Assembly (NCBI RefSeq): GCF_001040945.1
Contig: NZ_CP011930.1
Location: forward strand, 5,017,021-5,081,020
Direction of reading: 5' to 3'
DNA: 64,000 nucleotides
Origin: Herbaspirillum seropedicae
GTDB lineage: Bacteria; Pseudomonadota; Gammaproteobacteria; Burkholderiales; Burkholderiaceae_D
A model generated the notes under the pieces. It saw only the letters and a list, made by a program, of their open reading frames with translations. It did not search any database and was not told where the DNA came from. Shown piece after piece: positions 8,902 through 34,594 of the stretch. The position numbers were made by a program, and so were the translations under genes. The stretch's first letter is position 1. Every line of letters begins with the position of its first letter.

Positions 8902-9554
8902 GCCGGCACCAGATAGCCCACGCCGCGCACGTTCTTGATGAAGTCGCTGCCGACCTTCTTGCGCAGGGCGTGGATGTGGACTTCGACGGCATTGCTCTCG
9001 ATGCTGTCATCCCAGCCATAGAGCTTTTCTTCCAGCTGCGCGCGCGAGAGCACCACGCCAGGGCGGTCCATGAAGGCCTGCAAGAGCGTGAACTCGCGCG
9101 CCGACAGGTTGACCGGCTTGCCACTGACCGTCACTTCATGGGTCGCTGGATTCAAGATCACTTCGCGCACCTGCACCAGGCTCTCGGCGCGCCCCGCCTG
9201 GCGGCGCGAGAGGGCGCGCATGCGGGCCGACAGTTCTTCCAGGTCGAAGGGCTTGATCAGGTAATCGTCGGCGCCGGCATCGAGCCCGGCCACGCGGTCG
9301 GCCACAGCATCCCGCGCCGTGGTGATCAACACAGGGATGGCATTGCCGCGCTCGCGCAGCGTGCGCAAGACCGCCAGCCCATCCTTCTGCGGCAGTCCCA
9401 GGTCCAGCAGCAGCATGGCGTAGTCCTCGGTGCGCAGCGCCACGTCGGCCGACTTGCCATCCTGCACCCAGTCGATGGCAAAGCCATCCTGGCGCAAACC
9501 CTTGCGCACCGCTTCGCCCACCATGGGATCGTCTTCCACCAGCAATACGCGCAT
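8898..9554 (-). CDS. OmpR-family response regulator (QseB/PmrA-like)
   Basis: This 218-residue protein has a receiver domain with the acidic pocket (EDD at 8-10), the phosphorylated Asp51 (LLLDLGLP) and Lys in the LIKPF motif. A winged-helix DNA-binding domain of the OmpR/PhoB type follows, ending with VRGVGYLVP. It is the first gene of a two-gene operon with the overlapping sensor kinase. The PmrA/QseB subgroup binds paired TTAA-containing hexamers, and such pairs occur at 7460-7509 in front of the adjacent protease gene. Confidence 0.92.
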   Translation of the reverse strand: MRVLLVEDDPMVGEAVRKGLRQDGFAIDWVQDGKSADVALRTEDYAMLLLDLGLPQKDGLAVLRTLRERGNAIPVLITTARDAVADRVAGLDAGADDYLIKPFDLEELSARMRALSRRQAGRAESLVQVREVILNPATHEVTVSGKPVNLSAREFTLLQAFMDRPGVVLSRAQLEEKLYGWDDSIESNAVEVHIHALRKKVGSDFIKNVRGVGYLVPA

Positions 9555-11014: not shown

Positions 11015-11782
11015 ATGACATCACCCTCTTCTGCAGGCATCGCGCTGGTCACCGGCGCGGCACGGCGCATCGGCCGCCACATCGCCCTGGCCCTGGCGCA
11101 GTCGGGCTGGGACGTGGCCGTCCATTACAACCGCTCGCGCGAAGAAGCCGACACGCTGGTGCGCGAGATCGAAACCCTGGGCCGACGCGCCCTGGCCGTG
11201 CAGGCCGAGCTGGGCGATGAAACCCAGGTGCGCAGCCTGCTGCCCCAGGCCGCCCCGCTGGGACGCATCTCCTGCGTGGTCAACAACGCTTCGCTATTCG
11301 ATTACGATGACGCCGCCAGCTTCGGCAACGAGCGCCTGTTGCGCCACATGAGCGCCAACGTCGGTGCGCCGGTGCTGCTGGCGCAGGCCTTGTACGAGGC
11401 CACGCCGCAAGGCCAGCAGGCCGTCGTCATCAACCTGCTGGACCAGAAACTGTACAATCCCAATCCCGACTTCCTGTCCTACACCCTTTCCAAGGCGGCG
11501 CTGCACAGCGCCACCACCCTGCTGGCGCAGGCGCTGGCGCCCAAGGTGCGGGTGGTGGGCGTGGCGCCGGGCCTGACCATGGTCTCGGGCGACCAGACCG
11601 AGGAACAGTTCGGAAAAGCCCACCAGGTCACCCCGCTGGGCCGTGGCAGCACGCCCGAGGACATTGCCGCTGCGGTCTGCTACGTCGCTTCGGCGCGGGC
11701 CGTGACGGGTACCACCCTGCTGGTCGATGGCGGCCAGCATTTGCTTCCCCTTTCGCGCGACGTCATGTTCGTGGCGAAATAA
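11015..11782 (+). CDS. folM: Pteridine reductase / dihydromonapterin reductase-like short-chain dehydrogenase
   Basis: This 255-residue SDR has the nucleotide-binding motif TGAARRIGR. Its Arg is the hallmark of PTR1/FolM pteridine reductases (TGX3RXG) and favours NADPH. The YTLSK catalytic Tyr/Lys pair is present. The start is set at the ATG at 11015, because the 28 upstream codons do not resemble the family. It lies 17 bp ahead of folB on the same strand, so the pair probably acts in tetrahydropterin/folate metabolism. FolM reduces dihydromonapterin and, weakly, dihydrofolate. The symbol rests on motif and context. Confidence 0.8.
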   Translation: MTSPSSAGIALVTGAARRIGRHIALALAQSGWDVAVHYNRSREEADTLVREIETLGRRALAVQAELGDETQVRSLLPQAAPLGRISCVVNNASLFDYDDAASFGNERLLRHMSANVGAPVLLAQALYEATPQGQQAVVINLLDQKLYNPNPDFLSYTLSKAALHSATTLLAQALAPKVRVVGVAPGLTMVSGDQTEEQFGKAHQVTPLGRGSTPEDIAAAVCYVASARAVTGTTLLVDGGQHLLPLSRDVMFVAK

Positions 11783-11799
11783 CCTTTATATTTCTGATC

Positions 11800-12195
11800 A
11801 TGCTCTTCCTGTCCCATCCTTCCCTGCAAGATTGCCGCCGCCTGTTCCTGCGCAACTACGAGGTGTTCATCAACATCGGCGTGCACGAGTTCGAAAAGAA
11901 GGGTGAGCAGCGCATCCTGATCAACGTCGACCTCTACGTCCCGCTGGCCGAGACCACGCCCACCGCCGACCACCTCGACGAAGTGGTGGACTACGACTTC
12001 ATCCGCTCGACCATCGCCCAGCGCATGGCCCGTGGCCATATCCACCTGCAGGAAACCCTGTGCGACGACGTGATGACGGCCATGCTGGCCCATCCCAAGG
12101 TGCGTGCGGTGCGGGTGTCGACGGAGAAGCCGGATGTGTATCCGGATTGCGATTCGGTGGGGGTGGAGACCTTCCGTATCAAGACGGTTGGCTGA
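11800..12195 (+). CDS. folB: Dihydroneopterin aldolase
   Basis: This 131-residue enzyme carries the family core: LRNYEVFINIGVHEFEKKGEQ near residues 17-38, the YDFIRSTI segment and the HLQETLCDDV stretch with the catalytic Glu. It converts 7,8-dihydroneopterin to 6-hydroxymethyl-7,8-dihydropterin plus glycolaldehyde in folate synthesis. It follows the folM-like gene closely and is followed by a strong terminator. The last 30 codons shift to G/T-ending codons compared with the C/G-ending codons before, as seen also at the end of glmS. Confidence 0.92.
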   Translation: MLFLSHPSLQDCRRLFLRNYEVFINIGVHEFEKKGEQRILINVDLYVPLAETTPTADHLDEVVDYDFIRSTIAQRMARGHIHLQETLCDDVMTAMLAHPKVRAVRVSTEKPDVYPDCDSVGVETFRIKTVG

Positions 12196-12226
12196 TCCCA
12201 CTGCCGTTGGCCCTGCCCGAACCCCG

Positions 12227-12256
12227 AACCCCGCCGCTGCGGGGTTTTATTTTTTC
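12227..12256 (+). terminator. Rho-independent terminator of folM-folB
   Basis: A seven-bp GC-rich stem (AACCCCG / CGGGGTT) is followed by a T-rich tract (TTTATTTTTTC) about 30 bp after the folB stop. Confidence 0.85.
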
Positions 12257-12300
12257 GAGAATGGCCTGCTGTTTGCCACTTCCGCGCCGCTCCCAAGGTG

Positions 12301-12312
12301 GTAGCATGCTAC
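12301..12312. promoter_or_regulatory. Perfect 12-bp palindrome in front of higB, candidate HigA operator
   Basis: GTAGCATGCTAC is self-complementary and lies nine bases before the higB start codon. HigA antitoxins usually repress their own operon through a palindrome at this place. Confidence 0.5.
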
Positions 12313-12321
12313 GGTGCGTCG

Positions 12322-12615
12322 ATGCGCATCATCGCCCTCTCCACCTTACGGACTTTCTGGACCGCCCACCCTGCGGCGGAGACTGCGCTGCGCGCCTGGT
12401 ACGCGCTGGCCAGCCGGGTGAACTGGAAGACACCCGCTGATATCAAGGCGGCCTACCGCAACGCCAGTTTCACCAGAAACAATAAAGTGGTGTTCAACAT
12501 CAAGGGCAACGATTACCGCCTGGTGGTCGCCGTGCGCTATGACCAGGAATTGATCTACATCCGCTTCGTCGGTACACATCGCCAATACGACGCCATCGAT
12601 GTCGAAACGATCTGA
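12322..12615 (+). CDS. higB: HigB-type mRNA interferase toxin
   Basis: This 97-residue RelE-superfamily toxin starts at the ATG at 12322 (MRIIALSTL); a frame-extended start at 12298 is unlikely. Family features include the conserved FNIKGNDYRLV segment and the C-terminal YIRFVGTHRQYDAID. HigB cleaves mRNA on the ribosome until neutralised by HigA. The antitoxin gene follows 11 bp downstream, the reverse of the usual antitoxin-first order and typical of hig loci. Confidence 0.88.
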   Translation: MRIIALSTLRTFWTAHPAAETALRAWYALASRVNWKTPADIKAAYRNASFTRNNKVVFNIKGNDYRLVVAVRYDQELIYIRFVGTHRQYDAIDVETI

Positions 12616-12626
12616 AGGAATGTCAC

Positions 12627-13025
12627 ATGCCCATGCAACTCAAACTGATACGCACCCGCAAGGATTACCGCGCCGCGCTGGCCGAAGCCGAGCGTCTGTG
12701 GGACGCGCCGGCCCGCTCGGCGCAAGCCGATCAACTCGATGTCCTGACGCTGCTGATCGCCCATTACGAGCGTGCGCACTTCGCCATCGATGATCCCGAT
12801 CCCATCGACTTCCTGCTCCATGTGATGGAGGCGCGCGGTTTGTCGCGCAAGGATCTGGAGCCCTACCTGGGATCACGCGGCCGCGTCTCCGACATCCTCA
12901 ACCGGGTACGTCCGCTGACCCTGGACATGATCCGCAAGCTCAGCGCCGGCCTGAACCTTCCGGCTGATCTGCTGATTCAGCCCTATCCGGTGAGGTCGGA
13001 TTGCGCCGAATTGCTCAGCGCCTGA
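12627..13025 (+). CDS. higA: HigA-type helix-turn-helix antitoxin
   Basis: This 132-residue protein has an N-terminal region containing RTRKDYRAALAEAERLWDAP, the part characteristic of HigA-type antitoxins. An XRE-type helix-turn-helix follows at about residues 72-110 (GLSRKDLEPYLGSRGRVSDI). It should bind and silence HigB and repress the operon, probably through the palindrome at 12301-12312. It ends next to a strong inverted repeat. Confidence 0.88.
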   Translation: MPMQLKLIRTRKDYRAALAEAERLWDAPARSAQADQLDVLTLLIAHYERAHFAIDDPDPIDFLLHVMEARGLSRKDLEPYLGSRGRVSDILNRVRPLTLDMIRKLSAGLNLPADLLIQPYPVRSDCAELLSA

Positions 13026-17558: not shown

Positions 17559-17896
17559 GAGCGCCCCTCCCCTGCCTGCACGGAGCGTTCGACGTAAATT
17601 TTTGTTACCCCCAGGCTATAGTTCCGGATTGGACGACAAATACCCTCCTGATCCTCGCTTGAAGCCCAAAAACCGCATGTTCTAATCGGGTCATTCGCAG
17701 TCAGATGCCGCGAGGCAGGTCTGCCTGGATCAAGATAAACACAACCAAGCAGTCGAGGTTTCGCAGGGAAACGTGATCCCGACACGAAAAATACCGGGAG
17801 GCTGGCCACGAGCATGGCCCGGCCATACGCGTGAAACATCGCATTCGCTCCTCTGCACCCGAACGACTCTCTGCCATACGTGTAAGAGGCTGCCTG
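17559..17896. other. Non-coding leader of the polysaccharide locus
   Basis: No gene was recognised in about 340 bp. The base composition is mixed, and no JUMPstart/ops element (GGCGGTAG) was found. The promoter of the sugar-nucleotide operon is probably here. Confidence 0.45.
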
Positions 17897-18970
17897 ATGG
17901 CTAACTTTTGGCGCGACAAGCGCGTTTTCATCACCGGTCACACCGGCTTCAAGGGAAGCTGGCTGACGCTGTGGCTGCACCTGATGGGCGCGAAAGTCAG
18001 CGGCTATTCCCTGCCTGCGCCCACCAGCCCCAGCCTGTTCCACCTGGCGCGCCTGCACAATTGCGTGCAGACCACCACCGGTGATGTGCGCGACCCCAAG
18101 CACCTGGCCGAGACCATGGCGGCGGTGCAGCCCGATGTGGTATTCCACCTAGCCGGACAGCCGCAGATCGAACATTCCTACCTGACTCCGCTGGACACCT
18201 TCGCCACCAACGTCATGGGCACGGCGCATCTGCTGGAAGCCGTGCGCAGCACGCCCAGCGTGCGCGCGGTGGTGGTGGTCAGCAGCAACAAGTGCTATGA
18301 GAACCGCGAATGGCTATGGGGCTATCGCGAAGACGACCCCATGGGCGGCCACGATCCCTTCAGCAGCAGCAAGGGCGCAGCCGAACTGGTGACGGCGGCC
18401 TATCGGCGCTCCTTCTTCTCGGCCGATCCCGACAGTCCGGTCGGCGTGGCCAGCGTGCGCACCGGCAACGTCATCGGCGGCGGCGACTTTGCGGCAGACC
18501 GCCTGATCCCCGATTTCATCCGCGCGCTGGAAACGGACCAGCCCGTCACCATCCGCCAGCCGCATGCCGTGCGGCCCTGGCAGTTCGTGCTGGAGCCGCT
18601 GTCGGGCTACTTGCAGATCGGCAAGATGCTCTACGAACACGGCGCCAGCTACGCCGAGGCCTGGAACTTCGGCCCCACCGACACCGACCTGCAGACAGTG
18701 AGCCAGCTCTGCGCGACCTTCAACCACTCGCTGCAGAAGAACGATGTCGAACCCGTCGAGGTCCGCCTGGAACAGGCCGGCGCCACCCTCTCCGAAGCGG
18801 TGCTGCGGCTGGATACGTCCAAGGCGCGCCAGCGCCTAGACTGGATTCCGCGCATGGAGCTCTACACGGCGCTGGAACTGACCGCGCAATGGTATGCCGG
18901 CTACCTGAACAATGAAGACCTGCGCGCCCTGTCCGAGAATCAGATTGCCTTCTACCAGAGTCTGACATAA
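17897..18970 (+). CDS. rfbG: CDP-glucose 4,6-dehydratase-like SDR with Phe in place of the catalytic Tyr
   Basis: This 357-residue extended SDR (start MANFWRDKRV) has the family-typical GHTGFKGSWL nucleotide-binding motif, SSNKCYEN, and the GGHDP segment. RfbG turns CDP-glucose into CDP-4-keto-6-deoxyglucose, the entry to 3,6-dideoxyhexoses. In the SDR YxxxK motif the Tyr is replaced: the codons read Phe155-Ser-Ser-Ser-Lys159. No rfbF (CDP-glucose synthase) or rfbH gene is nearby. The enzyme may be inactive or may use another base. It is the first gene of a run of four sugar-nucleotide genes. Confidence 0.8.
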   Translation: MANFWRDKRVFITGHTGFKGSWLTLWLHLMGAKVSGYSLPAPTSPSLFHLARLHNCVQTTTGDVRDPKHLAETMAAVQPDVVFHLAGQPQIEHSYLTPLDTFATNVMGTAHLLEAVRSTPSVRAVVVVSSNKCYENREWLWGYREDDPMGGHDPFSSSKGAAELVTAAYRRSFFSADPDSPVGVASVRTGNVIGGGDFAADRLIPDFIRALETDQPVTIRQPHAVRPWQFVLEPLSGYLQIGKMLYEHGASYAEAWNFGPTDTDLQTVSQLCATFNHSLQKNDVEPVEVRLEQAGATLSEAVLRLDTSKARQRLDWIPRMELYTALELTAQWYAGYLNNEDLRALSENQIAFYQSLT

Positions 18971-20049: not shown

Positions 20050-21066
20050 ATGCTCTTCGTCACAGGCGGCGCCGGTTTCATCGGCGCCAACTACATCCTG
20101 CATTTCCTGGCGGCCCCGCACGATGAGGCCGTGCTCAACATCGACAAGCTGACCTACGCCGGCAATCCCGACAACCTGGCCAGCGTGGCCGGCGATGCGC
20201 GTTACCTGTTCAGCCAGACCGATATCTGCGACACCGCGGCCATTGCCCGCCTGTTCGCGCAGCACCGCCCGCGCGCCGTGGTCCACTGCGCCGCCGAGAG
20301 CCATGTGGACCGCTCCATTGCCGGCCCGGCGGTGTTCATCCAGACCAATGTCAACGGCACCTTCAGCATGCTCAGCGCGGCCTACGACTACTGGAGCACG
20401 CTGCCAGCGGCTGAGCAGGCGGCCTTCCGCTTCCTGCACATCTCCACCGACGAGGTATTCGGCAGCCTGGCCGCAGACGCGCCGCCCTTCACCGAAACTT
20501 CGCCGTACGCCCCCAACAGCCCCTACTCCGCCTCCAAGGCGGCTTCCGACCATCTGGTGCGGGCTTTTCACAGCACCTATGGCTTGCCGGTCCTCATCAC
20601 GCATTGCTCCAACAACTACGGGCCGTTCCACTTCCCGGAAAAGCTCATCCCGCTGGTGATCACCAACGCCCTGGCCGGCCAGCCTCTGCCCATCTATGGC
20701 GACGGCCAGCAGGTGCGCGACTGGCTGCATGTGGCCGATCACTGCCGCGCCATCGAACTGGTCCTGGCCCGCGCCCGTCCGGGCGAGAGTTATAACATCG
20801 GCGGCAATAGCGAGAAGACCAATCTCGAGGTGGTCCTGACCCTGTGCGACCTGCTCGATGAACTCGCCCCCAAGGCGCAAGGCCAGTACCGCGACCAGAT
20901 CTGCTTCGTGCAAGACCGCCCCGGCCATGACCGCCGCTACGCCGTCGACACCAGCAAGATCCAGCGCGAGCTGGGCTGGTCGCCGCAGCACGCCTTCAGG
21001 CAGGGGCTGCGGCAGACCGTGCAGTGGTTCCTGGCGGCACGCCATGCGTCCGGAGCGAGGCCATGA
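20050..21066 (+). CDS. rfbB: dTDP-glucose 4,6-dehydratase
   Basis: This 338-residue SDR starts at the ATG at 20050 ([15 protein letters not shown]). Family motifs are the catalytic [11 protein letters not shown] and YSASKAASD segments, [18 protein letters not shown] and the C-terminal [10 protein letters not shown]. It makes dTDP-4-keto-6-deoxyglucose, the precursor of dTDP-L-rhamnose and related sugars. It overlaps rfbC by 4 bp. The usual partners rfbA and rfbD are not in this window. Confidence 0.95.
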
Positions 21067-21608
21067 AGATCGCCGCCACCCTGCTCCCCGGCGTGCTGGT
21101 GCTGGAACCCACGGTCTTCGAAGATGCGCGCGGCCATTTCTTCGAAGCCTTCAATGCGCGCCAGTTCAAGGCCCTCACGGGGCTGAGCCCGGAGTTCGTC
21201 CAGGACAACCAGTCGCACTCCAAAGCCGGTGTGCTGCGCGGCCTGCACTACCAGCTGCACCAGCCGCAGGGCAAGCTGGTGCGCGTGATCCAGGGCGAGA
21301 TCACCGACGTGGTGGTGGACCTGCGCCGCCAGTCGCCCAGTTTCGGGCAATGGGCCAGCGTCACCCTGTCGGCGCAGAATCGCCGCCAGCTGTGGATCCC
21401 GGAAGGTTTCGCGCATGGCTTCCATGTCCGCAGCGACATTGCCGATGTGCAATACAAGACCACCGCCTACTGGTCTGCGCCGGATGAGCGCTGCATCCGC
21501 TGGGATGATCCCGATCTGGCCATCGACTGGCAACTGACCGCCCCGCCCCTGCTCTCGGACAAGGACCGGCAAGGCGTGTACTGGCGCCAGGCCGAGCTTT
21601 TTCCCTGA
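21063..21608 (+). CDS. rfbC: dTDP-4-dehydrorhamnose 3,5-epimerase
   Basis: This 181-residue cupin-fold enzyme has the catalytic-His segment [17 protein letters not shown], the [15 protein letters not shown] stretch and the GFAHGFHV motif. It epimerises dTDP-4-keto-6-deoxyglucose at C3 and C5 on the way to dTDP-L-rhamnose. The start codon overlaps the rfbB stop (ATGA), showing coupled translation. It ends the first sugar-nucleotide block; a 520-bp gap follows. Confidence 0.94.
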
Positions 21609-22128
21609 AATCGCAACGATCGGCGCGCGGCATTGCCTGCTGTCACTACCCTGATCCGCCCTGCCCATGCGCCTGCCCGGCGCGCACGCTAATACAAAAG
21701 GTGGACCGGAAAATCCCCTGTAATCCCGCCATCCGATCCGGCCAATCCACGTAGACTCCTCAGGATGCCCCTCTCCCGCAGCCCTGCTGCGACAAGGAGA
21801 ACAGGCGGAGAACAGTCGTTTTGCCTTGCCCAATCGATGCATGATGGAAAGTCTGGCCGATGGCATTGCAAGCGCCATGAGGAGATATCCAACGTGCCAG
21901 AAGCAAAGAATATCGATGTCCTGCCCGGCAATCCCGACCGTCGGCGCGCTCTCCTGCCGCATGGGCTGACCCGGAGCGGCGCCGCTATTTTCGGCCTGCC
22001 CGACGGCGCCCAGCCGTGCATGCAAGGCATGACCAGGCCACCGCGCAAGATCCTCGGAGACTGAACCCCGGCGGCGGCGCCTGGCGCTGCCCATCCCTTC
22101 TGCAGGGCCAACAGCACGGATAACGATA
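21609..22128. other. 520-bp gap between rfbC and hddA
   Basis: No known gene was recognised. The gap contains one small open frame with a good ribosome binding site, listed separately, and a purine-rich stretch just before hddA (ACAGCACGGATAACGATA). A promoter for the heptose block is expected here. Confidence 0.4.
21894..22064 (+). CDS. Possible small protein of 56 residues, doubtful
   Basis: A GTG at 21894 stands eight bases behind a strong GGAGA ribosome binding site and opens a 56-codon frame rich in Arg, Pro and Gly. No family is recognised, and codon use does not strongly support translation. It is listed because the start signals are good and the gap is otherwise empty. Confidence 0.2.
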   Translation: MPEAKNIDVLPGNPDRRRALLPHGLTRSGAAIFGLPDGAQPCMQGMTRPPRKILGD

Positions 22129-23127
22129 ATGATCATCACCCGTACCCCTTTTCGCATGTCCTTCTTCGGCGGCGGCACCGACTATCCGGGCTGGTATGCC
22201 GAACATGGCGGGGCCGTCCTGGCCACCAGCATCGACAAGTACTGCTACATCACCTGTCGCCACCTGCCGCCGTTCTTCGAGCACAAGCACCGCATCGTCC
22301 ACTCCCTGATCGAGAACGTGCAGACGGTCGAGGAGATCAAGCATCCGGCCGTGCGCGGCATCCTCGGCTGGACCGGCTGCGAGCGCGGCCTGGAAATCCA
22401 TCACGACGGCGACCTGCCGGCGCGCTCCGGACTGGGCTCCAGCTCTTCCTTCACGGTCGGCATGCTGCATGCGCTGGCGGCGCTGGAGGGGCGCTATGCA
22501 TCCAAGCAATACCTGGCCAGCACCGCCATCCATATCGAACAGAACGTCCTGGCCGAAAATGTCGGCTCGCAGGACCAGGTGTCGGCGGCCTATGGCGGCT
22601 TCAACATGATCGAATTCCATCGCAACGGCAGCTTCTCGGTCTCGCCGGTGGTCTTGCGGCAAGAGCGGCTCAATGAATTCCACAGCCACCTGATGCTGTG
22701 CTTCACCGGTTTTTCCCGCATTGCCTCGGAAGTGGCCAAATCGCAGATCGACAACCTCAAGCAGCGCCAGGCGCAGCTGCATCGCATGCGCGAGATGGTC
22801 GATGAGGCCATGTCCATCCTGCAAAGCGAGCATACCTCCATCGATGAGCTGGGCAAGCTGCTGCACGAAAGCTGGCTGTGCAAGCGCTCGCTCTCCGACA
22901 AGGTCTCCACCAGCGAAATCGACTACCTGTACCAGGAAGCGATGCAGGCAGGCGCCATCGGCGGCAAGATCATGGGCGCGGGCGGCGGTGGTTTCCTGAT
23001 GCTCTTCGTCAAGCCCGAACAACAGCCGGCCGTGCGCGAACGCCTGAAGCACTTGATCCATGTCCCCTTCAAGTTCGATGACGGCGGCACTCGCATCGTC
23101 ATGTACAACCCCACTGGATTGAATTGA
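22129..23127 (+). CDS. hddA: D-glycero-alpha-D-manno-heptose 7-phosphate 1-kinase (GHMP kinase)
   Basis: This 332-residue GHMP kinase has the N-terminal TRTPFRMSFFGGGTDYP signature of HddA and the ATP-binding motif LPARSGLGSSSSF at about residues 99-111. The C-terminal KIMGAGGGGFLM motif is also present. HddA phosphorylates heptose 7-phosphate at C1 with alpha configuration, the step that commits it to GDP-heptose instead of ADP-heptose. With hddC, gmhA and gmhB nearby, the locus holds all four activities needed for GDP-D-glycero-alpha-D-manno-heptose. The stop overlaps the next start by one base. Confidence 0.92.
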   Translation: MIITRTPFRMSFFGGGTDYPGWYAEHGGAVLATSIDKYCYITCRHLPPFFEHKHRIVHSLIENVQTVEEIKHPAVRGILGWTGCERGLEIHHDGDLPARSGLGSSSSFTVGMLHALAALEGRYASKQYLASTAIHIEQNVLAENVGSQDQVSAAYGGFNMIEFHRNGSFSVSPVVLRQERLNEFHSHLMLCFTGFSRIASEVAKSQIDNLKQRQAQLHRMREMVDEAMSILQSEHTSIDELGKLLHESWLCKRSLSDKVSTSEIDYLYQEAMQAGAIGGKIMGAGGGGFLMLFVKPEQQPAVRERLKHLIHVPFKFDDGGTRIVMYNPTGLN

Positions 23128-24116
23128 TGACGCTTTCCACTCCCGCAGCGCTGCCGGCCGACATGCCCTCGCGCGACGCCTCCATCTTCGTGGCAGGCCA
23201 CGCCGGCCTGATCGGTTCGGCCATCCTGCGCGCATTGCAACAGGCCGGCTACCGCAAGCTGATCACCCGCACCCGCGCCCAGCTGGAGCTGCGCGACAAG
23301 CAGCAGGTCGACGCCTTCTTTGAAGCGGAACGTCCGGACTACGTCATGCTGGCCGCCGGCAAGGTCGGCGGCATCCTGGAAAACCAGAGCTTCCCGGCCG
23401 ACTTCATCAACGCCAACCTGGCCATTTCGCTCAACGTGCTGGAGGCGGCCCATCGTTGCGGGGTCAAGCGCCTGGTGATGTTCGGCTCTTCCTGCATGTA
23501 TCCGCGCGAAACGGCGCAGCCGATGGCCGAGACGGCGCTGCTGAGCGGCCACCCGGAACCGACCAGCCTGCCCTATGCCATCGCCAAGCTGGCCGGCGTG
23601 CAACTGTGCCTGGCCTACAACCGCCAGTATGGCCAGCAGCGTTTCATCCCGCTCATTCCCAACAGCGCCTACGGCCCCAATGACAACTTCGACCCCAAGT
23701 CGGGGCATGTGCTGTCCTCGCTGATGGCGCGCTTCCACCAGGCCAAGCTGGATGGCGCCGAGGCCGTCACGCTATGGGGCAGCGGCACGCCGCGGCGCGA
23801 ATTCATCCACGCCGATGACATCGCCGCCGCCGCACTGCTGATGATGCGCGAGCAATTGCCTGCGCTCACGCTGCCCCTCAATGTCGGCTCGGGCAGCGAC
23901 ATTTCCATCCGCGAACTGGCCCAAGCCATCGCCGGCGTGGTCGGCTATGAAGGCCGGCTGGAATGGGACAGCAGCAAACCCGACGGCGCCCTGCGCAAGC
24001 TGCTCGACAGCAGCCTCATGCACCAGCAAGGCTGGCGCCCCCAGGTGGGATTTGCCGAAGGACTGCGCGATACTTACGCCTGGTATGTGCAGAACAAGGC
24101 CGGCCGCGCCGTCTGA
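23127..24116 (+). CDS. GDP-fucose-synthase-like epimerase/reductase (Fcl/WcaG, ColC or heptose reductase type)
   Basis: This 329-residue SDR has AGHAGLIGSAILRAL, the catalytic SSCMYP (Ser and Cys), YAIAKLAG (Tyr and Lys) and the downstream GHV histidine. All residues used by GDP-L-fucose synthase for C3/C5 epimerisation and C4 reduction are therefore kept. Similar enzymes act in GDP-colitose synthesis (ColC) and on GDP-4-keto-heptose in Campylobacter capsule loci. No GDP-mannose 4,6-dehydratase gene is near. The neighbours hddA and a ColD-like dehydratase suggest a GDP-heptose or GDP-deoxy-sugar substrate. The start is ATG 23127, overlapping hddA. Confidence 0.8.
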   Translation: MTLSTPAALPADMPSRDASIFVAGHAGLIGSAILRALQQAGYRKLITRTRAQLELRDKQQVDAFFEAERPDYVMLAAGKVGGILENQSFPADFINANLAISLNVLEAAHRCGVKRLVMFGSSCMYPRETAQPMAETALLSGHPEPTSLPYAIAKLAGVQLCLAYNRQYGQQRFIPLIPNSAYGPNDNFDPKSGHVLSSLMARFHQAKLDGAEAVTLWGSGTPRREFIHADDIAAAALLMMREQLPALTLPLNVGSGSDISIRELAQAIAGVVGYEGRLEWDSSKPDGALRKLLDSSLMHQQGWRPQVGFAEGLRDTYAWYVQNKAGRAV

Positions 24117-24182
24117 CCGGCGCATGGGATTTCCCGACAACGACAAGCAATGCTCTCCCTCACCCTCGCATAACGGAACCGC

Positions 24183-25355
24183 ATGATGAAATACCCACTG
24201 ATGAGAAACAATATCCTGCGTGAAGACCTCGATGCCGTCATCGAGCATCTGCGCCAGGACGATCCCATCCTGACCAACGGACCGAACGTACGCGCCTTCG
24301 AGAAGGAATGGTCCGAGTGGCTGGGCGTGAAGTACAGCGTCTTCGTCAACTCCGGCGCCTCGGCCAACCTGCTGAGCATGGCCGTGCTCAAGCTGCGCCA
24401 CCCGGAAGGCGGCGAAGTCATCGTGCCTCCACTGACCTGGATCTCCGACGTGGCCACGGTCATCCAGAACGGCTTCACGCCGGTCTTCGCCGATATCGAT
24501 CCGCGCTCGCTGGCCATGGCCCCGGAGCAGATCCTGGCCAAGATCACCGAGCGCACCCGCGCCGTGTTCCTGACCCATGTGCAGGGCTTCGACGGGCTCA
24601 CCGACGAACTGCTGGCCGAGCTGGAACGCCGCAACATCCCGCTCATCGAAGACGTCTGCGAATCGCATGGCGCTACCCACAACGGCCAACGCCTGGGCAG
24701 CTTCGGCTGGATGTCGAACTTCTCCTTCTACTATGCCCACCACATGAGCACCATCGAAGGCGGCATGGTCTGCACCAACGACCCCGAGGTCTACCAGCAG
24801 GTGCGCATGCTGCGCTCGCACGGCATGGTGCGCGAAGCGACCGATGACGACTTGAAGCTGGGCTATCGCCAGGACAATCCGCAGCTCAATCCGGACTTCA
24901 TCTTTGCTTTCCCGGCCTACAACGTGCGCAATACGGAAATCGGCGCCATCATGGGCCGCAGCCAGCTCAAGCGCCTGGACGCCAACTGCGCGCGCCGCAC
25001 CGCCAACATGATGCGTTTCCTCGACCAGATCGACAGCCAGCGCTACCGCGTCGATTTCAAGACCGAGGGTTCCAGCAACTACGCCTTCAACCTGGTGCTG
25101 CGCGAGGCCGACGACGTCTTCGTCGAGCGCCTCATGCAGACCATGCGCAGCAACGGCATCGAATTCCGCCGCGGCAGCGCCGGCGGTGACAACCAGGTGC
25201 GCCAGCCCTACCTGAAGGGCATCGTGCCGGCCGACCACTACCTGCAATTCCCGCAGACCGAGCACATCCATTTCTACGGCTTCTACATCGGCAACTTCCC
25301 CGACCTGTCCGACGCCGAAGTGGATGACATCTGCCGCATCCTCAACGCGGTCTGA
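24183..25355 (+). CDS. DegT/DnrJ-fold PLP enzyme with His in place of the PLP lysine (ColD-like sugar 3-dehydratase)
   Basis: This 390-residue protein has the fold and motifs of sugar aminotransferases (NSGASANLL, IEDVCESHGA), but the segment SFYYAHHMSTIEGG has His186 where aminotransferases have the Schiff-base Lys. The same exchange defines ColD (GDP-4-keto-6-deoxymannose 3-dehydratase, about 388 residues) and the CDP-sugar dehydratase E1. The iron-sulfur cysteine pattern of E1 is absent, so it is closer to ColD. It should remove the 3-hydroxyl of a 4-keto sugar using PMP and an amino donor. Neighbours point to a GDP-linked, possibly heptose, substrate. Confidence 0.82.
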   Translation: MMKYPLMRNNILREDLDAVIEHLRQDDPILTNGPNVRAFEKEWSEWLGVKYSVFVNSGASANLLSMAVLKLRHPEGGEVIVPPLTWISDVATVIQNGFTPVFADIDPRSLAMAPEQILAKITERTRAVFLTHVQGFDGLTDELLAELERRNIPLIEDVCESHGATHNGQRLGSFGWMSNFSFYYAHHMSTIEGGMVCTNDPEVYQQVRMLRSHGMVREATDDDLKLGYRQDNPQLNPDFIFAFPAYNVRNTEIGAIMGRSQLKRLDANCARRTANMMRFLDQIDSQRYRVDFKTEGSSNYAFNLVLREADDVFVERLMQTMRSNGIEFRRGSAGGDNQVRQPYLKGIVPADHYLQFPQTEHIHFYGFYIGNFPDLSDAEVDDICRILNAV

Positions 25356-25358
25356 GCC

Positions 25359-26081
25359 ATGACGATACAGTCCGCCGTCATCCTGGCCGGAGGCCTGGGC
25401 ACCCGTCTGCGCAGCGCCGTCCCTGACCTGCCCAAGCCGATGGCGCCGATCGAGGGCCGTCCCTTCCTCGAATACCAGCTCGACTACTGGATCGCCCAGG
25501 GCATCGCTCACTTCGTGCTGGCCGTGGGTTACCGGCACGAGGCCATCAGCGGGCACTTCGGCCAGCAGTACCGGGGCGCGCGACTGGACTACGTGGTCGA
25601 GGAAACACCGCTGGGCACCGGCGGCGGCCTGCTGCTGGCGCTGCAGCGCTTGCCGGCGGACCAACGCTTCCTGTTGCTCAATGGCGATACCTACTTCGCC
25701 GTGCAGTTGCCGGCGCTGGAACAGTTCGCCCTGCAGCAGGACAGCGACTGGTGCTTCTCGCTGTTCCGCACCGGCCAGACCAGCCGTTACCTGGGCATGG
25801 GCGTGGCTGCCGATGGCCGCATCACCGAACTCAAATCCAGCCAGGATGGCGACGAATGCCTGGCCAATGGCGGCGTCTATTGCATCCACCCGCGCGCCCT
25901 GGCCAGCCTGGGCGTGCAGGCCGGCGCCAGCACGTCGCTGGAAAACGATCTGTTCCCGCGCGCCTTCGCCGCCGGGCAGCGCATGGTGGGACTGGAATTC
26001 GACGGCAGCTTCATCGACATCGGCATCCCCGATGACTACCACCGCGCCGCCACCGTACTCAATGCAAAGGAGACCCCATGA
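25359..26081 (+). CDS. hddC: Sugar nucleotidyltransferase, likely GDP-heptose synthase HddC
   Basis: This 240-residue nucleotidyltransferase has the signature AVILAGGLGTRLRS at the N-terminus, the DLPKPMAPI segment, the LLNGDTYF motif and the C-terminal DIGIPDDYHRA. HddC guanylylates D-glycero-alpha-D-manno-heptose 1-phosphate with GTP. The call relies on context (hddA, gmhA, gmhB) and on size; other hexose-1-phosphate nucleotidyltransferases look similar. It lies 3 bp after the DegT gene and overlaps gmhA by 4 bp. Confidence 0.82.
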   Translation: MTIQSAVILAGGLGTRLRSAVPDLPKPMAPIEGRPFLEYQLDYWIAQGIAHFVLAVGYRHEAISGHFGQQYRGARLDYVVEETPLGTGGGLLLALQRLPADQRFLLLNGDTYFAVQLPALEQFALQQDSDWCFSLFRTGQTSRYLGMGVAADGRITELKSSQDGDECLANGGVYCIHPRALASLGVQAGASTSLENDLFPRAFAAGQRMVGLEFDGSFIDIGIPDDYHRAATVLNAKETP

Positions 26082-26665
26082 GCTCGCCACTGCTGCGCCT
26101 GCAACGCAACCTCGACGCTTCCATCCGCGCCAAGCAACAGCTCATGCAGGAGAGCGCCACCCTGGCCGTCTTCGACGCCGCCGTGGCCGCCACCATCGCG
26201 GCCTATCGCAATGGCCGCCGCATCTACATCGCCGGCAACGGCGGCTCGGCCGCCGATGCCCAGCACCTGGCGGCCGAGTTCGTCAGCAAGCTGGCGCGTG
26301 ATCGTGCGCCCCTGCCAGCCGAAGCGCTGACCACCGACAGCTCCATCCTCACCGCCATCGGCAATGACTATGGCTACGAGCAGGTGTTTTCGCGCCAGCT
26401 GGCCGGCAAGGCGGTGGCTGGCGATATCTTCCTGGGCATCACCACCTCGGGACGCTCGCCCAATATCCTGCGCGCGCTGGAGCAATGCCGCGCCATGGGC
26501 GTGCCCAGCATCCTGTTTACCGGCCGCGACGGCGGACCGGCGCGGCCCCTGGCCGACCACGCCATCGTCGTCCCCGGCGAGGCCACCAGCACCATCCAGG
26601 AATTGCATATCGTATTGGCGCATACCCTGTGCGAGAGCGTGGAAGCGGCCCTCTTCGGCGAATGA
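26078..26665 (+). CDS. gmhA: Sedoheptulose 7-phosphate isomerase
   Basis: This 195-residue SIS-domain protein has the AGNGGSAADAQHLAAEF motif and the downstream TTSGRSPNIL phosphate-binding loop. GmhA converts sedoheptulose 7-phosphate to D-glycero-D-manno-heptose 7-phosphate, the first step of both ADP- and GDP-heptose synthesis. The cell probably has another copy for lipopolysaccharide core heptose; this one belongs to the GDP-heptose operon. It starts inside the hddC stop (ATGA). Confidence 0.92.
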   Translation: MSSPLLRLQRNLDASIRAKQQLMQESATLAVFDAAVAATIAAYRNGRRIYIAGNGGSAADAQHLAAEFVSKLARDRAPLPAEALTTDSSILTAIGNDYGYEQVFSRQLAGKAVAGDIFLGITTSGRSPNILRALEQCRAMGVPSILFTGRDGGPARPLADHAIVVPGEATSTIQELHIVLAHTLCESVEAALFGE

Positions 26666-26688
26666 TCTTCAGCAAAGGACGATCCATC

Positions 26689-26837
26689 ATGTCTTACCAC
26701 ATCCTCGTCACCGGCGGTGCCGGCTATCTCGGCTCGAAGCGACCGGATTCAAGAACGAATTCTCCCTGGACCGCGGCATCGCCGAACTGGTCAAGGGCTA
26801 CACCATGACCAAGAACACCAAGTACGGCAATGTCTGA
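26689..26837 (+). pseudogene. Deletion remnant of an NAD-dependent SDR epimerase/dehydrogenase gene
   Basis: The first 16 codons from the ATG at 26689 encode a clean SDR start with a Rossmann motif ([11 protein letters not shown]). From about 26739, in a different frame, there are about 30 codons of a typical SDR C-terminus (GFKNEFSLDRGIAELVKGYT, ending KYGNV) with a stop at 26835-26837. The roughly 270 codons in between are missing. The old stop overlaps the gmhB start, so the gene once sat in this operon. Its ends resemble the SDRs of heptose loci such as Campylobacter Cj1427, a GDP-heptose 4-dehydrogenase; that link is an inference from memory of the family. Confidence 0.8.
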
Positions 26838-27420
26838 ACCCGCACGCCCCTGCGTCTTCATCGATCGCGATGGCACGCTCAATGTCGAGAAGAACTACCT
26901 GCACCGCTACGAAGACTGGGAATGGATCCCAGGTTCGGTGGAGATGCTGATGCAGCTGCATGCAGCCGGCTTCCTCAATATCGTGGTGACCAACCAGGCC
27001 GGCGTAGCGCGCGGCTACTACGACGAGCAAGCCATCAGCCGCCTGCACGCCCAGGTCGACGCCGGCATGGGAGAGGCCGCCGGCTGCATCGACGCCTACT
27101 ATCACTGTCCGCATCATCCGCTGCATGGCCAGGTGCGTGACTGCGATTGCCGCAAACCCGCTCCCGGCATGCTCTTGCGCGCCCAGCGCGAATGGAACAT
27201 CGACCTCTCGCGCTCATGGATGGTGGGCGACAAGCTCAGCGACATACAGGCCGGACTGGCCGTGGGTGCGCGCTGCGTGCTGGTGGCCACCGGCTATGGC
27301 CGCGAAGAACGCGACCACTGTCCCCCCGGCGTCCTGCTGGCCGACGATTTCGCCCGCGCGGGTGCGCTGATCCTGCGCGAATCCCGCCAGGCCGGCGCAG
27401 CCAGCGCCGCTCTTGCATGA
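26830..27420 (+). CDS. gmhB: D-glycero-D-manno-heptose bisphosphate phosphatase (HAD-IIIA)
   Basis: This 196-residue HAD hydrolase has the nucleophile motif FIDRDGTLN (Asp12, Asp14), TNQAGVARG, the zinc-binding loop CPHHP with a downstream CDCRKP, and MVGDKLSDI. GmhB removes the C7 phosphate from heptose 1,7-bisphosphate; with HddA and HddC this completes GDP-heptose synthesis. The ATG overlaps the stop of the SDR remnant by 8 bp. Confidence 0.92.
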   Translation: MSEPARPCVFIDRDGTLNVEKNYLHRYEDWEWIPGSVEMLMQLHAAGFLNIVVTNQAGVARGYYDEQAISRLHAQVDAGMGEAAGCIDAYYHCPHHPLHGQVRDCDCRKPAPGMLLRAQREWNIDLSRSWMVGDKLSDIQAGLAVGARCVLVATGYGREERDHCPPGVLLADDFARAGALILRESRQAGAASAALA

Positions 27421-28685: not shown

Positions 28686-29756
28686 GTGACAGCAGCAAGC
28701 TTCTTCATCAAACCGGGATATCGGGCCCGTACTCAACCGGAATACTACGCCGACGTCCACGATGACGGCACCATCTGGCAACCGGAGGTCTATCCGCTGG
28801 CAGCCACCCTGGCGCGCCAGTACGGTTGCCGCTACATCATCGATATCGGCTGTGGACGCGCGCGCAAGCTGTCGATGATGTACCCCGAGTTCCAGATCAT
28901 CGGCATGGACTTCGGCAGCAACCTGGAGCACTGCCGCGCCCAATATCCGTTTGGCAACTGGGTCGAGGTGGACCTGGAAAACAGCGACGGCGTGCAATTC
29001 CCGCCCGAGGTGCTACAAAACGCGGTGGTGATCAATTCCGACGTGATCGAGCACCTGGTCAACCCGACCCGCCTGATGGCCCTGATCCGTTCCTACCTGG
29101 TGCATGCCAAGGTCGCCGTGATCTCGACCCCGGAGCGCGATCTCGAACGCGGTACCCACGACATGGGTCCGCCGGCCAATCCCACCCACATCCGCGAGTG
29201 GAACCTGGCCGAGCTGGAAACCATGCTCAGCAGCGAAGGCCTGCGTCCGGCCTATTGCGGCCTGACCATCAGCAACGACCGCGACATGCTGCGCAAGACC
29301 TCGCTGGCGGTGGTGCCGGGCTTGTCGCTGAACTCGTCGGCGGTGCGCGAGCTGGGTGCGTTCTGCGAAAAATGGCTGGCGGCTTCGCCGGAGATGCGCG
29401 ACGCCGGCAATGGACAGTACCTGCAGAACCTGGCCCAGCTGGAACGTGAAATGGCCTCGGCGCAGTCCGCCGCGCAGCCGCTGCTGGCGCCCATGAGCCC
29501 GCTGGAAATCGGCATGGAGCACATTGCCGCAGCCCGTTACGAGGAAGCCTTCAAGGTCCTCACGGAAGCCCTGCAGAACGACGGCGAGAATCCGGCGGTG
29601 GTGTTCCAGCTGGGTCGCCTGGCGGCCATCTGCAACATGCCCGAGGATGCCAAGGAACTGTTCTACCAGGCCGCATTGCGCGCACCGGAAATCGTCAAGG
29701 ACATCTTCGATTTCTACCAGGAGCAATTGGCGCGGGCCCGCGCCGGCCTGGAATGA
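28686..29756 (+). CDS. Class I methyltransferase fused to a tetratricopeptide-like tail
   Basis: This 356-residue protein starts at a GTG (28686) with an AGGA ribosome binding site. Residues about 45-190 form a SAM-dependent methyltransferase (IIDIGCGRARKLSM, then a conserved SDVIEHLVNP). Residues about 275-350 look like two TPR helical pairs (MEHIAAARYEEAFKVLTEAL and after). It could methylate a glycan residue, but the acceptor is unknown. It is the last gene of the plus-strand block and is followed by a bidirectional terminator. Confidence 0.75.
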   Translation: MTAASFFIKPGYRARTQPEYYADVHDDGTIWQPEVYPLAATLARQYGCRYIIDIGCGRARKLSMMYPEFQIIGMDFGSNLEHCRAQYPFGNWVEVDLENSDGVQFPPEVLQNAVVINSDVIEHLVNPTRLMALIRSYLVHAKVAVISTPERDLERGTHDMGPPANPTHIREWNLAELETMLSSEGLRPAYCGLTISNDRDMLRKTSLAVVPGLSLNSSAVRELGAFCEKWLAASPEMRDAGNGQYLQNLAQLEREMASAQSAAQPLLAPMSPLEIGMEHIAAARYEEAFKVLTEALQNDGENPAVVFQLGRLAAICNMPEDAKELFYQAALRAPEIVKDIFDFYQEQLARARAGLE

Positions 29757-30821: not shown

Positions 30822-31871
30822 TCAGAATCCCATCTGCTTGACGGCGATCTGCGCCTGCACCCGATAGATCAGGCGTTCGAAGGCGTCGGCCCAGTCACTG
30901 GTGAGATTCTTGAGCAGCAGGCTCTTGCCGGCCCGGGTGATGCGACGGCGCACATCGTCGTGATAGAGCACCATCTGCAGGTTCGAGGCCAGCAGCTCCA
31001 TATTGCCCATCGGGTGCATCATGGCGTTGACGCCGTGCTTCAGGCCGATGTGGCGATAGGTCTCCAGGTCCGACAGGCAGACCGGGACTTCCAGCTCGAA
31101 GGCTTCCCAGATCGTCAGCGGCTGGGACTCGCTGGAACTGGCCAGCACATAGGCGTCCGCCGAGGCCAGGTAGCGCAGGGTTTCTTCGTTGGGCTGCTCG
31201 CCCAGGAAGCGGTAACGCTCCGGCAGTGCTTCAGCCAGCTTGCGCGCGCCATCGCCCAGCTGCAGGTACTTGCCGATGAAGACGCACTCGATCTCGGCAC
31301 GCTGCGCGCTGCTCATGGCATTGACGGCCAGGATGGTGTCTTCCATACGCTTGCGCGGTTCAATGGTGCCAATGCAGACGATGCGCTTCTTGTCCTTGGG
31401 CTTGGGCTGCAGATCCTGCTGGCGGTAGATGGCGTCGTTCCAGAACGGCAGCACATGCACCATGGCCGGACTGTCGAAGAGGAAGCTGCCATAGACGATG
31501 CGCTGGAACTCGGTCTGGAAGACGATGTGCGAGGCGCTCTTGAAGCCCTGCGCCATCTGCGGATAACGCAGCAGCAGGTCACGGCCGACCTCGGCCTCGT
31601 GCACCCACCAGATCACCGGGCAACGCGGCGCCAGCTCGCCCACCAGCGAACCCGACAGGATGCAGTTGGACACGATCAGATCAGGCTCGCCGGCCAGGTC
31701 CTTGACGATGGGAATGCCCAGCGCTTCGAACTGCTTGCGGATCTCGCCCTGGCCATCGATACGCGGCAAGACCGACACCTCGTGGTTCTGCACCAGCCGC
31801 TCGGCCAGGCGCAGCATGGCCGTGCTGGCGCCGGTGGTGTAGAACTCGTCGTTCAACAAAAGAATCTTCAT
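30822..31871 (-). CDS. Glycosyltransferase, GT-B fold (GT4-like)
   Basis: This 349-residue protein starts MKILLLNDEFYTTGAS. It has an N-terminal acceptor domain and a C-terminal donor domain with CIGTIEPRKRMEDTILAV and SSSESQPLTIWEAFELEVPV, the GT4 region with the E-x7-E pair. The donor and acceptor sugars are unknown. It is a close paralogue of the protein encoded at 33548-34594 on the far side of glmU; the first 56 residues differ at only about eight positions. It forms a two-gene minus-strand unit with the gene at 29854-30774. Confidence 0.85.
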   Translation of the reverse strand: MKILLLNDEFYTTGASTAMLRLAERLVQNHEVSVLPRIDGQGEIRKQFEALGIPIVKDLAGEPDLIVSNCILSGSLVGELAPRCPVIWWVHEAEVGRDLLLRYPQMAQGFKSASHIVFQTEFQRIVYGSFLFDSPAMVHVLPFWNDAIYRQQDLQPKPKDKKRIVCIGTIEPRKRMEDTILAVNAMSSAQRAEIECVFIGKYLQLGDGARKLAEALPERYRFLGEQPNEETLRYLASADAYVLASSSESQPLTIWEAFELEVPVCLSDLETYRHIGLKHGVNAMMHPMGNMELLASNLQMVLYHDDVRRRITRAGKSLLLKNLTSDWADAFERLIYRVQAQIAVKQMGF

Positions 31872-33547: not shown

Positions 33548-34594
33548 TCAATAGCCGAGCTTCCTGAGTTCCGCGCCCATGGCGGCGCGGGCAATGATGC
33601 GTTCGAACTCATCGGCCCAGTCGCGGGTGAGGTTCTTCAACAGCAGGCTCTTGCCCGCGCGCGCCAACTCCCGCGCCAGCGTGGGACGGGTCAGCAGTTG
33701 CTGCAGGTTGGCGCTCAACACCGCGGTCTGACCGACCGGATGCATCAGCGCATTGCGGCCATGCTGCAGGCCGATGTGGCCATAGGTTTCCAGGTCCGAG
33801 AGGCAGACCGGCACTTCCAGCTCGAAGGCTTCCCAGATGCTCAGCGGCTGCGATTCGCTATAGCTGGCCAGCACATAGGTATCGGCCGACGCCAGGTAGC
33901 GCAATACCTCGTCATTGGCCTGCTCCCCCAGGAAACGGTAGCGCTGCGGAGCCGCATCGGCGATCCGGCGCGCCTGCTCCGGCAATTCCAGGTACTTGCC
34001 GATGAAGACGCACTCCACCTCCTCGCGCAAGGCCGGCGGCATCGCCTCCACCGCCAGGACCGTATCTTCCATGCGCTTGCGCGGCTCGATGGTGCCGATG
34101 CAGACGATGCGCTTGCCGCGCTTGGGCTTGGGGCCCAGGTCTTCCTGCCGATAGATGGCGTCATTCCAGAACGGCAGCACATGACAGCTCGCCGGACTAT
34201 CGAAGAGGAAGCTCTGGTAGACCTTCTGCTGATAGCTGGTCTGGAAAACGATCTGCGACGCATGCTGGAAAGCCGGCGCCAGCGCCGGAAAGCGCAGGAT
34301 CAGGTCGCGCCCCACCTCGGCCTCATGGATCCACCACACCACCGGCACCTTGGGCCCGGCCTCGGCCACATGCAGGCCAGCCATGAGCGTATTGGCCACC
34401 ACCACATCCACGGTAGTGACGTTGTGGACGATGGGAATGCCCAGCGCCTCAAATTGTTTACGGATTTCTCCCTCGCCATCGCGGCGCGGCATCACCATCA
34501 CCTCATGCTGCTGAACCAGCCGCTCAGCCAGCCGCAGCATCGCAATGCTGGCGCCGGTGGTGTAGAACTCATCGTTGAGCAGGAGGATTTTCAT
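33548..34594 (-). CDS. Glycosyltransferase, GT-B fold, paralogue of the 30822-31871 gene
   Basis: This 348-residue protein shares start (MKILLLNDEFYTTGAS), length and nearly all motifs with the gene on the other side of glmU (CIGTIEPRKRMEDTVLAV, YSESQPLSIWEAFELEVPV). The two differ most around residues 55-80 and at the C-terminus, and so may use different acceptors. The pair looks like a local duplication around glmU. No other gene appears to share its transcript. Confidence 0.85.
   Translation of the reverse strand: MKILLLNDEFYTTGASIAMLRLAERLVQQHEVMVMPRRDGEGEIRKQFEALGIPIVHNVTTVDVVVANTLMAGLHVAEAGPKVPVVWWIHEAEVGRDLILRFPALAPAFQHASQIVFQTSYQQKVYQSFLFDSPASCHVLPFWNDAIYRQEDLGPKPKRGKRIVCIGTIEPRKRMEDTVLAVEAMPPALREEVECVFIGKYLELPEQARRIADAAPQRYRFLGEQANDEVLRYLASADTYVLASYSESQPLSIWEAFELEVPVCLSDLETYGHIGLQHGRNALMHPVGQTAVLSANLQQLLTRPTLARELARAGKSLLLKNLTRDWADEFERIIARAAMGAELRKLGY

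Follow-up and report, generated by a model that had tools for sequence, protein, structure and literature searches.

The closest described systems come from Campylobacter jejuni, in which HS:5 and HS:11 make GDP-3,6-dideoxyheptoses (PMC10440746), the 4-keto group being introduced by a 4,6-dehydratase so that C6 is deoxygenated as well. Cj1427, the C4-dehydrogenase of the HS:2 route, spares the 6-OH, and when it was combined in vitro with the HS:5 C3-dehydratase, the pair yielded GDP-D-glycero-3-deoxy-4-keto-heptose and, from there, GDP-D-glycero-3-deoxyheptoses (PMC10680097). Branching of deoxysugars by ThDP enzymes is known from YerE in LPS and from E1-type enzymes and split transketolases in antibiotics (PMC12247030); the split transketolases of that review comprise 13 sequences, all from streptomycetes and none tested in vitro, and the term "GDP" is absent from its text. 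Two unusual higher sugars are also relevant. Caryose is the 4,8-cyclo-3,9-dideoxynonose in the LPS of Pseudomonas (Trinickia) caryophylli (PMC9026286), and no genes for its biosynthesis were found in the literature examined. For bradyrhizose, PMC4743980 presents the genes as an eleven-gene cluster including "gdh".

A GDP-heptose operon with a ColD-like protein

The window, which is the whole 64,000-nucleotide stretch of the Herbaspirillum seropedicae chromosome analyzed here, carries an operon on its forward strand that begins with a GHMP kinase resembling D-glycero-D-manno-heptose 7-phosphate kinase (hddA, 22129-23127), followed by a GDP-fucose-synthase-like epimerase/reductase (GFS, 23124-24116) that starts with TTG and overlaps hddA. 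Downstream are a DegT-fold protein (24183-25355), a nucleotidyltransferase resembling D-glycero-D-manno-heptose 1-phosphate guanylyltransferase (hddC, 25359-26081), a sedoheptulose 7-phosphate isomerase-like gene (gmhA, 26078-26665) and a heptose 1,7-bisphosphate phosphatase (gmhB, 26830-27420). The genome has a single copy each of hddA, hddC and the DegT orthologue. The sequence-only reading had already seen a GDP-heptose operon with a fucose-synthase-like reductase and an unusual DegT protein, and this arrangement holds. The heptose enzymes are the best matches for all four assigned functions, yet GmhB alone exceeds its curated NCBIfam cut-off (180.1 versus 178), with HddA (147.6 versus 600 bits), HddC (160.8 versus 300 bits) and GmhA (182 versus 276 and 166.8 versus 209.45) falling below theirs, so the name of the pathway rests on gene set and synteny. 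GFS aligns with the E. coli GDP-fucose synthase at 339 bits over residues 20-325 and retains the GSSC and YxxxK motifs and the His of SGHV, which we take to be the catalytic residues, as had been proposed.

The DegT protein is predicted, from residue, tree and fold, to be a PLP-dependent 3-dehydratase of the ColD/E1 type. By sequence, the four nearest proteins of known structure are each ColD (184 bits), as are Foldseek ranks 1-11, and its His186 aligns with the ColD residue altered in the PDB entries titled H188N and H188K. This substitution for the PLP lysine, singled out earlier as the mark of a 3-dehydratase, is shared by all 82 DegT proteins of the conserved module described below, all 10 RfbH and RfbH-like proteins, ColD and one Paracoccus protein; the four aminotransferases of this genome have Lys (three) or Ser (one) at that position. 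In a tree of 36 of the 98 aligned sequences, including 20 of the 82 module members and 10 of the 14 RfbH-family loci, these proteins split from the aminotransferases, whose branches are long, with 100/100 support, and the module clade is sister to ColD with 96/86 support. The grouping with true aminotransferases, named beforehand as the outcome that would refute the idea, did not occur. The AlphaFold model has a mean pLDDT of 82.4 but falls below 50 at residues 185-190, and for this reason we make no claim about active-site geometry.

Since ColD is the nearest characterized clade, a hexose substrate has to be considered, either GDP-4-keto-6-deoxymannose, in a colitose route with GFS, or CDP-4-keto-6-deoxyglucose, together with the rfbG-like gene upstream (17894-18970), a CDP-glucose 4,6-dehydratase relative that does exceed its cut-off (457 versus 278 bits). 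Of the 20 GDP_Man_Dehyd matches in this genome, however, the 11 best include no GMD by NCBIfam, the other nine scoring below 60 bits, and the colitose route was judged unlikely on this ground. The CDP-dideoxyhexose (RfbF/G/H) route was likewise judged unlikely, because no glucose-1-phosphate cytidylyltransferase (RfbF) scored above cut-off in the complete genome and the DegT protein itself reaches only 187 bits against an RfbH cut-off of 423.

A conserved gene neighborhood around the DegT protein

We fetched 80 loci by similarity to the DegT protein, many of them from metagenome bins and labelled Pseudomonadota, Nitrospira, Acidobacteriota and others, and counted neighbors in the 56 that have 5 kb on either side of DegT. 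A Cj1427-like C4-dehydrogenase adjoins DegT in every one of these 56 relatives. The hddA and hddC genes each adjoin it in 53, an association beyond chance which, together with the presence of GMD in just 1 of the 80 loci, further argues against a hexose substrate, and we regard that alternative as very unlikely. Of the 56 relatives, 54 also have a split ThDP enzyme pair, a putative carboligase, which is of the transketolase type in 31 and of the E1 type in 23 and never of both together, and a B12 radical-SAM enzyme is present in 47. There is no link between radical-SAM type and ThDP type, as each radical-SAM type co-occurs with both ThDP types. GFS belongs to the module in only 27 relatives, so the reductase is not part of its core.

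This gene set is widespread and apparently undescribed; a search of openly licensed papers listed no description of it. Surveys for the DegT protein located it in 3 of 392 genomes of the family, 2 of 248 at completeness 100 and 2 of 34 genomes of the genus. Plasmids are represented by five records with relatives at 33-36%, and the one inspected, from Paracoccus, has a gmd-fcl-DegT cluster. Among the named entries, fewer than half, of the 120 best dehydrogenase matches listed, no photosynthetic Bradyrhizobium was recognized.

Gene loss in the window and a complementary second locus

Comparison with a syntenic congener reveals that the window has lost part of this module. Just upstream of hddA, at 21894-22064 on the forward strand, lies the remnant of a B12 radical-SAM gene (compared with 7953-9440 of the congener), with its first and last codons within one short open frame and the middle missing. 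The ThDP enzyme pair, which in the congener is of the E1 type and about 1.25 kb long, is gone from the site that corresponds to 24106-24172 on the same strand. Downstream of gmhA, also on the forward strand, 26689-26837 is what remains of a Cj1427-like C4-dehydrogenase, namely codons 1-16 followed by the C-terminal 35 codons in a different frame, with about 790 bp missing between 26731 and 26732. Neither remnant had been recorded in the sequence-only reading. With the C4-dehydrogenase reduced to a remnant and no GMD among the 11 best GDP_Man_Dehyd matches of the genome, the 4-keto step must come from outside the operon.

The functions missing from the window are encoded, in module order, elsewhere on this chromosome, at locus B (323.8-328.2 kb), which lies outside the window and about 0.8 Mb from the operon if the contig is read as circular. 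Its genes are those of a Cj1427-like C4-dehydrogenase, of a transketolase split into TktN and TktC and of a B12 radical-SAM enzyme, with motifs intact. The dehydrogenase matches 6vo6, which we take to be Cj1427, at 377 bits and retains YxxxK. The radical-SAM enzyme differs in type from that of the window remnant, and the carboligase is of the transketolase type, from which a carboligation reaction is predicted. Genes for HddA, HddC and DegT are absent from locus B, and the gaps between its genes contain, among the matches listed, only chance-level similarity to hddA, GFS, DegT, hddC and gmhA, giving no sign that those genes were formerly there. The two gene sets are therefore complementary, and the 4-keto step is most likely supplied by locus B.

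Two remnants and a lost gene pair could also mean that the operon is decaying and now supplies GDP-heptose only, with DegT and GFS as relics that lack a substrate. We consider this quite unlikely. An intact C4-dehydrogenase and the other lost functions are encoded elsewhere on the chromosome, at a locus devoid of its own hddA, hddC and DegT. In addition, the retained genes are under purifying selection relative to the congener, with dN/dS values of 0.045 for DegT, the lowest of the seven genes compared, 0.074 for hddA, 0.096 for hddC and 0.154 for GFS, next to 0.101 for the neighboring galE, although these values span the whole time since the split and do not show continued use of the genes once the losses had occurred.

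A proposed split pathway to a branched deoxyheptose

The operon and locus B are probably the two parts of a split nucleotide-sugar pathway, whose product would be a branched deoxyheptose. If the two loci are co-expressed, as this model presupposes, the C4-dehydrogenase of locus B would oxidize GDP-heptose to the 4-keto sugar, and DegT would then strip the 3-OH to give GDP-3-deoxy-4-keto-heptose; homologs have carried out both steps in vitro, and by analogy these enzymes may do the same. The ThDP enzyme could then place a two-carbon unit on the C4 ketone, producing a 3-deoxy-4-C-branched sugar that the radical-SAM enzyme and GFS might complete before it enters the final glycan.

The 3-deoxyheptose that had been expected from the operon fares well as an intermediate, and GDP-3-deoxyheptose is the best reading at that stage, but the operon has no enzyme for the 4-keto group, and the conservation of ThDP and B12 radical-SAM enzymes beside DegT suggests that the product is branched and not the plain sugar. 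If GFS instead reduced C4 and the sugar were used unbranched, with the transketolase and radical-SAM enzyme of locus B serving some other role, the preserved GFS motifs and the loss of the ThDP pair from the window itself would make sense, and C. jejuni C4-reductases did reduce this 3-deoxy-4-keto sugar in the published in vitro work (PMC10680097). That outcome nonetheless appears unlikely, given a ThDP pair that stays with DegT in nearly all relatives and sits alongside the dehydrogenase at locus B, and a GFS missing from 29 of the 56 relatives.

A more specific form of the branched product is carbocyclic. The constitution of caryose is that of a 3-deoxyheptose (C1-C7) plus a two-carbon unit (C8-C9) bonded to both C4 and C7, and in such a scheme the radical-SAM enzyme would join C7 to the unit on C4 and close a cyclopentane. 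With an E1-type carboligase delivering acetyl, this would give the exact constitution of caryose; the transketolase type that this genome has would lead to the 9-hydroxy analogue. The best NCBIfam matches of the B12 radical-SAM enzymes are the carbocycle formers HpnJ and BchE, although the scores (175.5/132.3 for the congener and 110.9/86.7 for locus B) are far below the cut-offs of 577.6/481.4. We offer the carbocyclic product tentatively, as possible but rather improbable.

If the split pathway is correct, it would be a natural route pairing a C4-dehydrogenase with a C3-dehydratase, enzymes that the single paper found on the subject had put together in vitro, and adding a carboligase. GDP-heptoses would join the substrates of ThDP sugar branching, and orphan higher sugars such as caryose would gain a testable source. 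It would also show how, after gene loss, a single pathway can be divided between two incomplete gene sets in one genome.

Comparison with known systems

The DegT protein resembles ColD of the colitose pathway in fold, in the His that replaces Lys and in its position as a sister clade, but it belongs to a separate clade on a long branch, with heptose genes in place of gmd. The pathways of ThDP-branched deoxysugars may offer another likeness: they have a carboligase next to a 3-dehydratase and a 4-keto-3-deoxy sugar as acceptor, as is predicted for the module. The deoxyheptose chemistry itself has been published for C. jejuni, and the earlier impression that such a product was undescribed therefore holds only in part. 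Unlike the 3,6-dideoxyheptose pathway, the module nearly always lacks GMD and has C4-dehydrogenase, ThDP and radical-SAM enzymes instead. Addition of a C3-dehydratase to the Cj1427 route leads to exactly the intermediate proposed here, and that pairing was an in vitro combination of enzymes from two serotypes, termed novel by its authors (PMC10680097), whereas the corresponding genes are neighbors throughout the relatives counted and, in this genome, are split over two loci.

The window operon and the class of its DegT protein

All six genes on which the sequence-only reading rested are present on the + strand at positions 22129-27420 of the window, within a 5.51-Mb genome assembled as one contig. 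HddA, HddC and GmhA have the expected NCBIfam families as their top matches but fall under the curated cut-offs, GmhB is over its cut-off, and the GFS-like protein matches E. coli GDP-fucose synthase at 339 bits. The best solved match of the DegT protein is ColD (184 bits), and its closest relatives are from Herbaspirillum among the listed matches that bear organism names.

That reading took DegT for a ColD-like 3-dehydratase, and the phylogeny supports this, with DegT placed away from true aminotransferases. His186 aligns with the ColD residue altered in the PDB entries titled H188N and H188K. Histidine occupies this position in 82 of 82 DegT proteins, namely those of the window, a congener and 80 related loci. 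It also does so in all ten RfbH or RfbH-like proteins of the comparison, in ColD and in a Paracoccus protein encoded in a gmd-fcl cluster; four aminotransferases of the same genome have lysine (three) or serine (one). The tree, built from 36 of the 98 aligned sequences and with long aminotransferase branches, groups its 20 module members in a single clade (100/100) whose sister group is ColD together with the Paracoccus protein (96/86), and it separates the histidine enzymes from the aminotransferases at 100/100. A Foldseek search with the AlphaFold model of DegT returned ColD chains at all of ranks 1-11 and E1 at rank 33.

3-Dehydratases of this kind require a 4-keto sugar, as is established for ColD and E1, and the window operon contains no enzyme that would make one from GDP-heptose. 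Of 20 GDP_Man_Dehyd profile matches in the genome, none of the best 11, named by NCBIfam, is GMD, and the remaining nine each score below 60 bits.

Several neighbouring genes are recorded here in their own right. A CDP-glucose 4,6-dehydratase lies at 17894-18970 (457 bits, cut-off 278), and no glucose-1-phosphate cytidylyltransferase (RfbF) is over cut-off in the genome. Relatives of rmlB and rmlC, over or near cut-offs, lie directly upstream of the operon at 20050-21608, with no rmlA or rmlD seen adjoining them. A protein of TPR repeats fused to a methyltransferase domain (28686-29756) is also found beside the module in the congener, and two similar - strand glycosyltransferase genes (30822-31871 and 33548-34594), both beginning MKILLLNDEFYTTGAS, stand either side of glmU in what looks like a duplication.

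A conserved module in relatives

From 121 DegT relatives, the loci of the 80 best (62-83% identical) were retrieved and annotated by comparison, and gene context was counted in the 56 loci with at least 5 kb either side of DegT, the other 24 being omitted. A Cj1427-like C4-dehydrogenase of 312 aa is present in 56/56, hddA and hddC in 53/56 each, a ThDP enzyme pair in 54/56, a B12 radical-SAM gene in 47/56, gmhA in 28/56 and GFS within the module in 27/56. These counts do not describe a random sample, since similarity to DegT decided which loci were taken and metagenome bins make up many of them. With contig ends counted, all 80 loci give the dehydrogenase in 75, the ThDP pair in 71 and GMD in one. 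The most frequent order is radical-SAM, hddA, GFS, ThDP pair, DegT, hddC, gmhA, C4-dehydrogenase, with genes absent in some loci and the radical-SAM gene downstream in others. The ThDP pair is of transketolase type in 31 loci and of E1 type in 23 (two of these, L072 and L084, called on weak matches of 30-32%), never both together, the minimal E1-like pair occupying the place of the split transketolase. In the congener (positions 11564-12712 of its syntenic stretch, L153) this pair is very short, at 199 and 178 aa, with E1_dh and Transket_pyr domains only.

Gene loss in the window and a second locus

The congener (genome G033) carries an E1-type module syntenic with the window, against which the window shows three losses: a radical-SAM remnant at 21894-22064 that keeps both gene ends, loss of the ThDP pair between 24105 and 24173, and a C4-dehydrogenase gene from which about 790 bp are gone between 26731 and 26732. 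Because 31 of 34 residues at the C-terminus of the dehydrogenase remnant are those of the congener and 23 of 34 those of the second locus, the remnant is, by this comparison, the old resident copy. There is gene loss on the congener side too, where gmhA is reduced to about its last 46 bp (L153:14621-14711). Between window and congener, dN/dS is 0.045 for DegT, 0.074 for hddA, 0.096 for hddC, 0.154 for GFS and 0.101 for the neighbouring galE, values that span the entire time since the two diverged and so give no date for the losses.

A second locus on the same chromosome, at 323803-328217, carries a radical-SAM gene, TktN, TktC and a C4-dehydrogenase in module order. The expected motifs (CxxxCxxC, GDG...N, YxxxK) are intact in its proteins, and its dehydrogenase matches structure 6vo6, which we take to be Cj1427, at 377 bits across 311 residues. 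The radical-SAM gene is 83% identical to a Methylobacter copy, the corresponding figures being 74% for TktC and 72% for the C4-dehydrogenase, and the top matches among the 80 loci all lie in transketolase-type loci: radical-SAM 91% and TktC 82% (both L077), TktN 92% (L021) and dehydrogenase 85% (L028). Across the genus (34 genomes) no other genome has a TktC of this type, the rest reaching at most 36% identity, or a radical-SAM gene of this type. Downstream (12780-18756 of L152, the stretch containing this locus) is a two-partner secretion pair, an ShlB-type transporter and a 1422-aa TPS-domain protein.

In the whole genome hddA, hddC and the DegT orthologue each occur once, with the next-best matches to hddC and DegT at 45 and 118 bits. 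From their gene content, the window operon and the second locus thus add up to a full transketolase-type module, of which each alone carries only a part; we assume that the two are expressed together. Judging by the congener, the radical-SAM and ThDP genes gone from the window differed in type from those of the second locus (radical-SAM, 42%; ThDP enzymes, an E1-type pair), so the sugar product may have changed when the gene types were exchanged.

Proposed pathway and known systems

By analogy, the Cj1427-like dehydrogenase would oxidize GDP-heptose at C4, and DegT would then dehydrate C3 to give GDP-3-deoxy-4-keto-heptose. In vitro, Cj1427 with the HS:5 C3-dehydratase yields GDP-D-glycero-3-deoxy-4-keto-heptose (PMC10680097). 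A plain 3-deoxyheptose, with GFS as the reductase, is a less probable product. Within the fetched stretches no radical-SAM gene was seen in 9/56 relatives and no ThDP pair in 2/56. The longer, favoured route would continue with ThDP-dependent carboligation at C4, a step we infer because the ThDP pair is conserved and ThDP-branched sugars are reviewed in PMC12247030. According to that review, E1-type ThDP enzymes appear specialized for C2 branches and split transketolases are so far without in vitro tests. Ring closure from C7 to the branch would, as a hypothesis drawn from constitution, lead to the skeleton of caryose (PMC9026286). Both radical-SAM types have HpnJ and BchE as top NCBIfam families, with scores far under cut-off, and the best solved match of one type is AprD4 (42 bits); according to a preprint (PMC13142503), B12 radical-SAM enzymes known not to methylate are few, and all of them either close rings or carry out rearrangements.

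Our search of openly licensed papers found no description of the module as a linked set, of the interchange between its two ThDP types or of the two-locus split. The novelty claimed from sequence is narrowed, since 3-deoxyheptoses have been made in vitro and 3,6-dideoxyheptoses are already described in C. jejuni (PMC10440746).
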